Virus record (IMG/VR): IMGVR_UViG_3300020478_000024 | Coordinates: 1 to 38,239 of that record | Strand: one strand, 5' to 3' | DNA from: a virus | DNA length: 38,239 bases | Shown here: positions 15,430-29,158 of the stretch, piece by piece | Layout: every line of letters begins with the position of its first letter | Numbering within the stretch: position 1 is the stretch's first letter | The notes under the pieces: generated by a model | What the model was told of the DNA's origin: nothing | Databases searched by the model: none | The model's input: the letters and a program-made list of their open reading frames with translations, nothing else | Made by a program: the position numbers and the translations under genes

Positions 15430-15873
15430 CAGGACTTTTTCCTTTTTCCCAGGAAGTGCCTCGTTGATCGAGTAAGTGATCTTACGTTGGTGCTCTGGAA
15501 TAATTTTTTCCAGTCTAACACTCAATAGACCATCTTGGAATGAAACGTCAGAAACCTTAACATCATCACCTAACTGCCATGTGTTAGTGAATGCACGTTT
15601 TGATAGTCCTTGATGAAGATATGTTACCTGTTCCCTTGCACCTGTCTTTGTTTTAGATGCGACCTTAAGTACGTTTGTCTCTGTTTCTACTACTATCTCA
15701 TCCTTACTGAAACCTGCGAGAGCAATTTCGATTTCAAAAGTTGTGTTATCGTGCTTGATGAGATTGTATGGTGGGTAGCTCACATTGTGTGAACTCATTG
15801 ACTCTAGACGATGAAAAATATCATCCAAGCCAACATTGAAAGGGGAATAAACATCCCATGCGAGATTAGTCAT
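15418..15873 (-). CDS. hsp20: Small heat shock protein Hsp20
   Basis: 151-residue alpha-crystallin-type chaperone of the IbpA family, which holds unfolding proteins in a refoldable state without ATP. The alpha-crystallin domain spans about residues 38-135: FEIEIALAGFSKDEIVVETE, YLHQGLSKRAF, then the SVRLEKIIPEHQRK region. Hsp20 is a core gene in marine T4-like cyanophages and may protect capsid or host proteins during infection. A good AGGAG lies upstream of the ATG. A late octamer and a complex inverted repeat (15892-15948) lie in the leader. Confidence 0.95.
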   Translation of the reverse strand: MTNLAWDVYSPFNVGLDDIFHRLESMSSHNVSYPPYNLIKHDNTTFEIEIALAGFSKDEIVVETETNVLKVASKTKTGAREQVTYLHQGLSKRAFTNTWQLGDDVKVSDVSFQDGLLSVRLEKIIPEHQRKITYSINEALPGKKEKVLLTE

Positions 15874-15891
15874 TATTCTAGCTCCTATTAA

Positions 15892-15948
15892 GCGAGTTTG
15901 TTTGTGTGGACCCGTTAGGCATCCACCATTATTTATTAAACAAACTGC
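15892..15948 (-). promoter_or_regulatory. Inverted repeat in the hsp20 leader enclosing a late promoter
   Basis: AGTTTGTTT (15895-15903) and AAACAAACT (15938-15946) are perfect 9-bp arms, extendable by GC/GC with one bulge. Inside is a second dyad, GTGGA (15906-15910) and TCCAC (15922-15926). The late octamer (15930-15937) lies between the arms. A run of seven T follows on the plus strand (15949-15955), so on that strand it looks like an intrinsic terminator. On the minus strand, early read-through RNA would form the stem while late-initiated RNA would lack one arm. Confidence 0.6.
15930..15937 (-). promoter_or_regulatory. Late promoter AATAAATA for hsp20
   Basis: AATAAATA on the minus strand, 56 bases before the hsp20 ATG. 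It lies inside the long inverted repeat of the leader. The RNA would begin around 15924. Confidence 0.6.
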
Positions 15949-24689: not shown

Positions 24690-25077
24690 TATCCTTTCTT
24701 CTAGGTACTTGTATTGTCCATGCTCCACCTTCAAGATCAACCATCTCAAACTCGGAAGCATTCTTCTTTCTTTGTTTCTCTTCTTTCTCTCTTTCTACCA
24801 ACTCTTTCTCACGTCCAGGTTCAGGTTGAATCTCACCATAGTGTTTATCTGTCCAGATTTCTGGATGCTCATGACAATCAAAGAACTCTAGGATACTAGA
24901 GTCAACCATATGATAAAGAGTATCCCATGTTAATGTACTACGCAGTTTCTCTGCTATGTAATCAATCTGATTCTCTGACATAGAGACATCATCATCTTTA
25001 AACAGATACTCACCTCTTACTGCTACCAACTCATTCAAGTTAATGAGTATAGAGTTGTCATTATAAATGGCTCTCAT
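24655..25077 (-). CDS. Protein of unknown function next to gp55
   Basis: 140 residues. Residues 1-60 (MRAIYNDNSILINLNELVAVRG) look like a beta-alpha domain; residues 85-140 are charged, with a Glu/Lys-rich helix (EREKEEKQRKK) and an Asp/Ser-rich tail. The start overlaps the gp55 stop as ATGA and the end overlaps the KOW-like gene by 35 bases. No family is recognised. Confidence 0.65.
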   Translation of the reverse strand: MRAIYNDNSILINLNELVAVRGEYLFKDDDVSMSENQIDYIAEKLRSTLTWDTLYHMVDSSILEFFDCHEHPEIWTDKHYGEIQPEPGREKELVEREKEEKQRKKNASEFEMVDLEGGAWTIQVPRRKDNDLTRNDSDSD

Positions 25078-25568
25078 CGATTGTTCATCCTCGTTTCTAT
25101 ATTTTCTTTTATGCTACCCATGTCTGAATAAGACTGATTCATACCTGCCATATCACCTTCATAAGTTTCAGTGTACATGACCTCTTGATACCCAGACTTC
25201 TCTAGGATCTTACTCTTAATTTCTAACTGACGCTTCTCTTTCTGTATTCTTCTTAAGAAAGCGTAATATATGATCTGGGTGAAATAAGCAAAAGGATTAG
25301 ATGATTTCTCTGGATTAAAGTTATCAATATATTGCAAGCAGTTCTCAATGCCATCACAAATCATATCTTCCCTGAACATATAGTTCACGAAGTTTGGCTT
25401 GTATGATAGATGTGTAGCAATCTTTAAAAAGCAGTCACCAATATAGTTTGGAACACGTGGTTTATCCTTACCACCAAGAGAAGCACGAGCAACCTTTCCT
25501 TTATAAGCAACTATAGCCTCTAGAAACTCTCGGTTATTTACATAGTACTCGGTCTTTGCTTTTGCCAT
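25074..25568 (-). CDS. 55: Late-transcription sigma factor, T4 gp55-like
   Basis: 164 residues; binds host RNA polymerase and directs it to late promoters (TATAAATA-type) together with the gp45 clamp. The region NPFAYFTQIIYYAFLRRIQK (about 91-110) corresponds to sigma region 2 that melts and reads the -10 element. T4 gp55 has 185 residues. A near-perfect host-type promoter (25595-25623) lies immediately upstream and makes it an early gene. Confidence 0.92.
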   Translation of the reverse strand: MAKAKTEYYVNNREFLEAIVAYKGKVARASLGGKDKPRVPNYIGDCFLKIATHLSYKPNFVNYMFREDMICDGIENCLQYIDNFNPEKSSNPFAYFTQIIYYAFLRRIQKEKRQLEIKSKILEKSGYQEVMYTETYEGDMAGMNQSYSDMGSIKENIETRMNNR

Positions 25569-25594
25569 GCATCTTAATCTTTTTTGCTAACGGT

Positions 25595-25623
25595 AGTATA
25601 GTATAAAATACTTGTTTTGTCAA
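25595..25623 (-). promoter_or_regulatory. Strong host sigma70-type promoter for gp55
   Basis: TTGACA at 25623-25618 on the minus strand, 17 bases, TATACT at 25600-25595: the same pair and spacing as the primase promoter. The predicted start leaves a leader of only about 20 bases before the ATG at 25568. Confidence 0.85.
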
Positions 25624-25629
25624 CGGGGC

Positions 25630-25658
25630 TTGACAACCCCAAACAAACCTAGTACAAT
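25630..25658 (+). promoter_or_regulatory. Divergent host sigma70-type promoter
   Basis: TTGACA at 25630-25635 on the plus strand, 17 bases, then TACAAT at 25653-25658. It points toward the Sm-like gene at 25698-26096 and uvsW, opposite to all genes here, so it would make an antisense or small RNA. A dyad (GGGG..TTGACAA..CCCC, 25625-25640) covers its -35 box. Confidence 0.6.
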
Positions 25659-25697
25659 AACTCTGTCAAGGGTTCAGGGATAAGTCTCTAGAAACTT

Positions 25698-26096
25698 TTA
25701 GCTGTTATTAAAGATCTTCTCCAACATAATTTTTGTTTGTTTAACAGATCCTAGGTATCCCATCTGTTTAGTAAGACCTTTACCATTAACATTAGTAGGT
25801 ATTTCACCATCTAATTCAAGATGCTTTTCATAGAAGTGTGCTATCTTTTTATCTAATTCTGTTATAGTAACTACTTGTTTCATTTTAACTACAAACATAG
25901 TTTCATATGTAGCAGTCATCCATTCTTTTAAATGAAATCCTTCTATAGCCCTATTACCTCTTTTCTGGATAATACGTTCTACAATCATAGGATTATCAAC
26001 CAATAAAGAATCTTCATCTGGCATGTAAGAAACTTTAGCAATAAGTTCTTCACCAGTTACTAACTTTAAAGTTGCATAGAATTCTTCTTCCATCAT
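25698..26096 (-). CDS. Sm-like protein D
   Basis: 132 residues. The core ATLKLVTGEELIAKVSYMP, LLVDNPMIVERI, then EWMTATYETMFVVKMKQVV matches the other Sm-like proteins, with a longer C-terminal helical extension (ELDKKIAHFYEKHLELDGE). The start overlaps the UvsW stop: ATGATG with TGA. This paralogue lies about 10 kb from the other three, next to gp55. RNA binding is inferred from the fold. Confidence 0.65.
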   Translation of the reverse strand: MMEEEFYATLKLVTGEELIAKVSYMPDEDSLLVDNPMIVERIIQKRGNRAIEGFHLKEWMTATYETMFVVKMKQVVTITELDKKIAHFYEKHLELDGEIPTNVNGKGLTKQMGYLGSVKQTKIMLEKIFNNS

Positions 26097-27559
26097 GTAT
26101 CTAATAAGTTAACCTTAATAATTTCATATTTAAAATTCTCTTCCTGGTATATCCTTAAACGTTCTTCTAAATGCTTTAATGTATAATTATCCCTACGTCC
26201 TGATATATCATCTGCAATATCATATAGAGTAGCAATATGTTTACCTTCTCCTTTACGAAGGACCCTACCTATAGATTGGAGGTTACGAATTCTAGATTTG
26301 GATGGGGATGCAAATATAATGTTATGTAATCTTTTGATGTTAATCCCTGTAGAGAAGGTGCCATACGAAGCAATGATAATAGCATTGTCTTCGCTCTCGG
26401 TTAAAGATCTGACTTCCTCCCTATCAGTGACATCGGTAGATCCATGTACTATAAACACTTTACGTGTCTTTCCCACAGAACTATTTATTAAATCATAAAG
26501 AGGTTCACCATGTTTTTCTACATAGTTGTATAAGACTAGAGTATTCCCTTCAAGATCATTAACTAGATTCTTAATAAGGTTATTTCTCTTTTCATTTTCT
26601 ACAAGATATTCCATCTCGGAATGATAGTCAGGAAAGTATTTGTAAGTATGTTCACACAACAATACTTTTATTCTAAATTTAGAAAGATGACCTTTCTTGA
26701 TTAGAGTATCAGTTTTAGTTACTTCTGAACATGGACCAAACAATCCCTCCAGTACCCATTTATGTGTCTTACTTCCAGATAGTGTACCAGTAAAACCGTA
26801 CCTAAACTTTGCATTATGAAGTTTTGTCATAATACCTGTTAAAGATTTTGCTTGAAACAGGTGTGCTTCGTCACCTATCACACAATCAATGTCATCAAAA
26901 TATCTTTTAGGAAATTTATAGATTGATTGCCACGTAGATATGATAATATGCTTATCAGTATGCCTATCCTTACCACCATATATCTTATGAACATATTCTT
27001 CAGCATTCCAACCGTAGCTACTAAAGTCCTTGACCATTTGTTCCACGAGGGACGTAGTAGGTACGATGATGAGCGTCTTCTTGTTGGAGGCGCAATAATA
27101 TCTGACTATGGAGTATATCATAAGAGACTTCCCAGACCCCGTTGGAGAAAGAAATAGTCCTCTGTTATCTTTTAATGCTTTATAGACAGTGAAGTACTGA
27201 TAGTCTCTTGGTTTGACCTTACAAACCTTATTCATAAAAGCTGCAACACCCTTTGGTGTAATAAAACTATTCTTGACTTCTAGATTTCCATACCAATCAC
27301 TTTTATTATATGATATTGTATATCTTCTCTCTGCACACCAGTCTTTTACATGTTTAAGTAAACCATTATACATCACACCTGTAGCAGGAGAGTATAGATG
27401 GATCATCCCATCCCAATACTTGTACCTAGCTTGTCTTTTTAAATACTTTGCGTCTGGAAGTTCAAATGAAAAATAATCTGCTAACTCATGATGGACATAT
27501 TGCTCGCAGTCAATTTTCATATTGACTTCATTCCTTTTGGTGATGATGAGATGAGACAT
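26093..27559 (-). CDS. uvsW: Recombination helicase UvsW
   Basis: 488-residue superfamily 2 helicase that unwinds branched DNA and R-loops and helps switch from origin to recombination-dependent replication. Motif I PTGSGKS at 139-145, DEAH at 230-233, FTGT at 256-259, motif VI QSIGRVLRKG at 428-437. Length matches T4 UvsW (about 500). The start overlaps the uvsY stop (TAATG), so the recombination mediator and the helicase are co-translated. Confidence 0.95.
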   Translation of the reverse strand: MSHLIITKRNEVNMKIDCEQYVHHELADYFSFELPDAKYLKRQARYKYWDGMIHLYSPATGVMYNGLLKHVKDWCAERRYTISYNKSDWYGNLEVKNSFITPKGVAAFMNKVCKVKPRDYQYFTVYKALKDNRGLFLSPTGSGKSLMIYSIVRYYCASNKKTLIIVPTTSLVEQMVKDFSSYGWNAEEYVHKIYGGKDRHTDKHIIISTWQSIYKFPKRYFDDIDCVIGDEAHLFQAKSLTGIMTKLHNAKFRYGFTGTLSGSKTHKWVLEGLFGPCSEVTKTDTLIKKGHLSKFRIKVLLCEHTYKYFPDYHSEMEYLVENEKRNNLIKNLVNDLEGNTLVLYNYVEKHGEPLYDLINSSVGKTRKVFIVHGSTDVTDREEVRSLTESEDNAIIIASYGTFSTGINIKRLHNIIFASPSKSRIRNLQSIGRVLRKGEGKHIATLYDIADDISGRRDNYTLKHLEERLRIYQEENFKYEIIKVNLLDT

Positions 27560-28035
27560 TACGTACTCCCATTAATAAATTTCTCCCATTCAATGGCACT
27601 CTTGATTGCAAACCCTCTATTAGATACTTGCTTCATTACCTGATCTAGGAAATAGAGCATCTGATCTACAAACTTAATCTTTGCTTCTAGATTAATAAGG
27701 TCCTCGTCTCCTTCGAGGTATATTTTCATTTTGTCTTGAGTCTTTATACTATTACCAAATGGTTTTTCAGCATATACTCTTGCGTCAGCTTCTCCTCCAT
27801 AGTACTCACGCTTCTCCTTAACCATTTTCCTGTATTCAAACTCAAGAGAGGTTTTGATCTGTGAAATGTCAGTATAATGGTTTAGATATTTATTATGCTG
27901 AAAAGGAATTTCCAGCGCAAGTTTAGCAAGGTCTTCCGAATACTCCTTGTTCTTAAACTGGAAGTTTATTTCGGCATCCCCTGCCCAGGTTTCTTTAATT
28001 TTTTCAAAGCGATGATGTAGTTGGGTTATGTTCAT
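27559..28035 (-). CDS. uvsY: Recombination mediator UvsY
   Basis: 158 residues; loads UvsX onto gp32-coated single-stranded DNA. The helical pattern EIPFQHNKYLNHYTDISQ and YRKMVKEKREYYGG matches UvsY, and its position beside uvsW fits T4-like cyanophages. T4 UvsY has 137 residues. Stop and start overlap the neighbours by TAATG and ATGA. Confidence 0.9.
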   Translation of the reverse strand: MNITQLHHRFEKIKETWAGDAEINFQFKNKEYSEDLAKLALEIPFQHNKYLNHYTDISQIKTSLEFEYRKMVKEKREYYGGEADARVYAEKPFGNSIKTQDKMKIYLEGDEDLINLEAKIKFVDQMLYFLDQVMKQVSNRGFAIKSAIEWEKFINGST

Positions 28036-29105: not shown

Positions 29106-29135
29106 CAAAAAAAAGAGAGTCCCGAAGGACTCTCT
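29106..29135 (-). terminator. Intrinsic terminator after gp23
   Basis: On the minus strand AGAGAGTCC, UUCG-type loop (TTCG), GGACTCTCT, then a run of eight T. The 9-bp stem is perfect (29127-29135 with 29114-29122). It lies 23 bases after the gp23 stop and is the clearest terminator in the window. Confidence 0.93.
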
Positions 29136-29158
29136 TGGTGTGCGAATGTGAACTTGAA

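Follow-up and report, generated by a model that had tools for sequence, protein, structure and literature searches.

Gene expression in cyanophages is known mostly from coding-strand profiles. In phage T4 the middle promoters carry a MotA box instead of a −35 box, and to our knowledge T4's MotA and AsiA are absent from T4-like cyanophages. Expression of the T4 helicase UvsW is driven by a late promoter, and the enzyme unwinds R-loops at origins (PMC3016281). Among elements that read backwards over neighbouring genes, lambda pO also affects replication through interference with opposing transcription (PMC3985674), and CfrI, as cited in PMC5931967, is an antisense RNA of the psbA region of cyanophage S-PM2. 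Here we describe a conserved, predicted antisense promoter at the border of the replication genes of T4-like cyanophages, together with a palindromic motif at its start site. The site was found in a 38,239-nucleotide stretch of viral DNA, referred to below as the window, and was compared with related loci.

Results

The window belongs to a T4-like cyanomyovirus genome. The minus strand carries, in order, genes for the tail sheath, portal, scaffold, major head protein, a tail-tube-family protein, UvsY, UvsW and an Sm-like protein, and then gp55, gp47, gp46 (assigned by position, from relatives), the sliding clamp, clamp loader, DNA polymerase, UvsX and helicase. Around the site these are gp55, the late sigma factor (25074–25568, minus strand; PHROG 234, 5.6e-67), the Sm-like gene (25698–26096, minus; PHROG 471), the helicase gene uvsW (26093–27559, minus; DNA helicase PHROG 16, 1.9e-117, and given the name UvsW at the equivalent position in annotated relatives) and the recombination mediator gene uvsY (27559–28035, minus; PHROG 231). 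The Sm-like gene bears the label 'methylamine utilization' in many cyanophages, yet it has an Sm-like domain by both Pfam (PF16243 Sm_like, 2.7e-11) and a profile match to PDB 3by7 (1.2e-7). The Sm-like gene and gp55 are separated by 129 bp (25569–25697), and this gap is the border between a structural/uvsY–uvsW–Sm-like block and a replication block, both on the minus strand; the equivalent gap in P-HM1 likewise divides structural from replication genes.

Elsewhere in the window, a strong intrinsic terminator (29113–29136, minus strand; 10-bp stem and T-run) lies just 3′ of the major head protein gene and would fix the 5′ limit of the uvsY–uvsW–Sm-like unit. All ten matches to HATAAATA, which resembles T4 late promoters, are on the minus coding strand, and their number is at chance level. 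Directly before an Hsp20 gene (15873–15418, minus; Pfam HSP20, 8e-15) is a below-threshold match to the Rfam RNA thermometer ROSE_3 (15868–15928, minus; 27.2 bits against a cut-off of 43); if the match is true, this phage small heat-shock gene would have a heat-sensing leader, which would be of interest.

The gap holds a pair of predicted promoters placed back to back. On the plus strand, TTGACA (25630–25635) and TACAAT (25653–25658) are separated by 17 nt, and on the minus strand gp55 is preceded by TTGACA-N17-TATACT (25595–25623; −35 at 25623–25618, −10 at 25600–25595). Each matches the consensus at 11 of 12 positions, and they are the top two of 49 sigma70-like sites between 20 and 32 kb; the plus-strand site has the −35 TTGACA, 16–18 nt spacer and −10 TAnnnT of a sigma70 (group 1 sigma) promoter. 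Taken alone, the window contains six TTGACA-N16-18-TAnnnT matches against 2.8 expected, and 9 of 100 shuffles reach six, so the pattern in a single window could be due to chance; its significance comes from conservation in relatives. The initial annotation had reported both box pairs, named the adjacent gene Sm-like and placed all other genes on the minus strand. Each description agrees with what we find, the last of them for every open reading frame of at least 150 aa outside 21.5–28.9 kb and for every identified gene inside that stretch.

The comparison set consisted of 80 gp55 loci from IMG/VR (gp55 identity 62–91%) and 12 isolate or single-cell loci, giving 93 loci with the window. In all 92 relatives examined the corresponding position, between the Sm-like gene and gp55, is occupied by a plus-strand promoter aimed away from gp55. 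With the window counted, TTGACA is exact in 91 of the 93 loci, a −10 TAnnnT is present in all 93, and the spacing is 17 nt in 89. Twenty-eight loci were taken as gp55-divergent representatives (less than 85% gp55 identity), and 26 of these have an exact TTGACA-N16-18-TAnnnT, where 200 shuffles gave a mean of 0.15 and a maximum of 2; the two others are each off by one base (TTGACG and TTGCCA). Within the loci of the representatives, antisense consensus matches cluster at the border site only. The promoter is kept in the isolates Syn9, S-PM2, P-SSM2, P-HM1, Syn30 and the freshwater S-CRM01, with predicted starts on the antisense strand, which is the minus strand of these records, at about 123698 (Syn9), 84439 (S-PM2), 124805 (P-SSM2) and 116774 (P-HM1). 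At a spacing of 17 the antisense strand of Syn9, S-RIM8, S-PRM1, Syn30 and ACG-2014d has no other exact consensus promoter; with 16–18 allowed, the number rises to 3–14, this one included. Neither the gene order nor the promoter element was found in the other T4-like phages RB9, Skers and two Vibrio phages. Judged from these sequence comparisons, the predicted plus-strand promoter beside gp55 is real and not a chance match.

On the gp55 strand, an exact consensus is present in 10 of the 28 representatives, and across the loci the gp55 promoter often combines an extended −10 with a −35 that is weaker and variable. In several lineages TTGTCAA supplies −35 bases common to both strands, and the plus-strand box could be kept as a by-product, because gp55's promoter needs the same bases, with plus-strand transcription as noise. 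We consider this most improbable, since conservation extends to the −10 box, the spacer length and the start site of the plus strand, and since it holds where the gp55 promoter has a separate −35 or, as in S-CRM01, sits about 190 nt away from the antisense promoter. In the lineages with a common TTGTCAA, conservation of the −35 box is nevertheless partly shared with gp55, and this counts against the explanation that we prefer, an antisense switch under phage control (see Discussion).

In every locus a TG follows the −10 box, by 7 nt (84 of 93) or 8 nt (9 of 93), with the T at −1 in all 93. This is the expected T(−1)G(+1), and the predicted start in the window is the G at 25665 on the plus strand. 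The predicted start usually lies 8–54 nt past the Sm-like stop codon and is aimed into the Sm-like gene. As the genes on both sides are on the minus strand, a plus-strand transcript would run antisense to both the Sm-like gene and uvsW, along a predicted path of 25665–27559.

Spanning the start is a motif, AACTCTGTCAAGGGTT (−6 to +10; 25659–25674, plus strand), which is an imperfect, operator-like palindrome; the gp55 promoter in the window lacks it. Positions −6..−2 show partial complementarity to +4..+8, and the two halves covary (AACTC/GGGTT, AACAG/CTGTT, AACCT/AGGTT, AACCG/CGGTT, CTTAG/CTAAG). Among the 28 representatives the covariation of the arms has a z of 5.5, as high as in none of 1,000 shuffles, and relatedness inflates such z-scores. 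An RNA hairpin was also considered: the arms fold on the plus strand as RNA, but the 5′ arm is upstream of the predicted start, and G-U pair counts favour neither strand beyond random expectation. Because of the position of its 5′ half, the motif is read as a DNA operator.

The first ~12 nt of the predicted transcript are conserved, and this 5′ end, GUCAAGGGUUCA, could be the seed with which a discrete small regulatory RNA acts on other mRNAs; some relatives (L004, for example) have an AT-rich hairpin and T-run 40–70 nt downstream. We regard such an RNA as quite unlikely. Most representatives are without a terminator, and no plus-strand intrinsic terminator downstream is conserved among them; the Rfam search gave no family at the promoter site, and a second copy of the seed was not found in the window. 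Moreover, the co-evolving motif includes −6..−1, which would not be transcribed, and this argues that selection acts on the DNA. The check on conservation proposed by the initial annotation was borne out, with plus-strand boxes in every relative that are stricter than gp55's own, and its antisense target, the Sm-like gene and uvsW, was right. Its alternative of a small RNA is, from the sequence comparisons, not supported, and it missed the operator-like start-site motif that other promoters of the same genome also carry.

The same motif recurs at other promoters in related genomes. An IMG/VR scan that used just the promoter and the 5′ half returned 91 gp55 sites and about 20 others before small genes, encoding a RusA-like resolvase, a GIY-YIG-like protein and PHROG 507; the 3′ half is mostly present at these sites too. 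Scanning again for the AACCTT variant gave further sites before PHROG 718 and 627 with the matching 3′ half AGAGGTT, and a scan with the AACAGT variant found no dyad-bearing sites outside gp55. The composite element is a sense promoter about 15–65 nt ahead of most of the small phage genes that follow such sites (RusA-like resolvase, GIY-YIG-like, PHROG 507 and 718; loci L166, L170, L185, L196, L137, L225, L160, L292 and L328). Most complete genomes examined have one or two extra motif sites, mostly ordinary promoters before small genes. At one locus (L510; G006:C1:90578-90636) there is a second divergent promoter pair, whose motif-bearing member is antisense and points into a gene that looks like a 2OG-Fe(II) oxygenase.

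Copies within a genome are of the same variant: AACAC in Syn9, AACAA in ACG-2014d, AACCT in S-RIM12, AACTCTGCC in S-PRM1 and AACTC..GGGTTCATGAG in S-PM2. The best match scored 12.07 to a genome's own motif and 10.54 to the motifs of others (0 of 5,000 permutations), and the test with second sites picked by gene (PHROG 718, six genomes) gave 1 of 720 permutations, the relatedness of the genomes being only partly removed in both. Concordance is confined to −6..+10 and absent from the spacer and downstream DNA, a comparison that is partly circular because the sites were picked by similarity; the two permutation tests avoid this circularity. As in an operator, then, a palindromic motif lies at several promoters of one genome, and the sharing of variants within genomes points to a putative phage-encoded DNA-binding regulator. 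S-RIM8, S-PRM1, Syn30 and S-PM2 all have WH7803 as recorded host yet carry different variants, which makes a host factor unlikely. The sharing was seen in related genomes, the window record being 38 kb; no clear second site was found in P-HM1, S-CRM01 and genome G007, which counts against the preferred explanation, as do the terminator result above and the incomplete removal of relatedness.

Two roles for the antisense promoter that turn on the act of transcription were weighed against these data. Outgoing polymerases might collide with read-through from the structural genes and uvsW and so keep late transcription off the gp55–replication block, the RNA itself having no role. This would suit a promoter placed exactly at the block border with no conserved terminator downstream, and lambda pO owes part of its effect to direct polymerase interference with pR (PMC3985674); we nevertheless think it unlikely, as it leaves unexplained a co-evolving start-site motif that is common to sense promoters. 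The transcript might instead form an R-loop, as at T4 oriF and oriG, so that leading-strand synthesis starts near uvsY–uvsW. T4 oriF is at uvsY and needs transcription from a promoter, and R-loops of this kind are removed by UvsW (PMC3016281). But ordinary genes elsewhere are driven by promoters of this type, GC skew in the window keeps its sign at the site (itself weak evidence), and we hold such priming to be very unlikely.

Discussion

The explanation we prefer, which we rate as close to an even call but on the lower side of it, is that the sigma70-type promoter is an early antisense switch at the block border under phage control, by which Sm-like/uvsW mRNA would be held down until gp55 takes over and a regulator closes the promoter. 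Early in infection, host RNA polymerase would fire both ways, from the antisense promoter and the divergent gp55 promoter, and the antisense arm would run into the Sm-like gene and uvsW, holding down their mRNA by collision, by RNA pairing or by both. Next, gp55 would redirect polymerase to late promoters, and a putative phage DNA-binding protein would occupy the palindromic start-site motif and close the antisense promoter. As T4 UvsW is late and removes origin R-loops, its early expression may be unwelcome, and early silencing would make sense; the late timing of uvsW in cyanophages is carried over from T4 by analogy.

A wider proposal, which we offer tentatively and with some doubt, is that a small regulon, diversifying fast, is common to T4-like cyanophages. 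Two or three strong early promoters would each have a palindrome, centred on the start, to which a putative phage-encoded regulator binds; one of these promoters would always be the antisense one at the gp55/Sm-like–uvsW border, where it would time the early-to-late switch. A control element of this kind, an antisense promoter present in every relative examined with a start-site motif that co-varies among promoters of one genome, would be specific and easy to test.

Of known systems, lambda pO comes closest to such a backward-facing promoter beside replication genes (PMC3985674). Like the predicted cyanophage promoter, it stands where the replication genes begin, faces back over the gene upstream (cII in lambda) and is antisense to that gene's 3′ end. 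The lambda OOP RNA is short and terminated, whereas no conserved terminator was found among the cyanophage representatives; lambda is also temperate and unrelated, and nothing links the cyanophage site to an origin. CfrI, as far as it is described in the citing source, is likewise an antisense RNA (here predicted) in a T4-like cyanophage, but belongs to another locus and is tied to psbA and a homing endonuclease. With the T4 middle promoters at the R-loop origins oriF and oriG the site has in common a host-sigma −10 box near uvsY and a setting of uvsW and R-loop biology; it differs in its nearly invariant TTGACA where those promoters have a MotA box. The early sigma70 promoters of T4 and cyanophages have the same architecture of a −35 box, 17 nt and a −10 box, and the antisense promoter described here differs from them in pointing against genes and in bearing a palindromic start-site motif.
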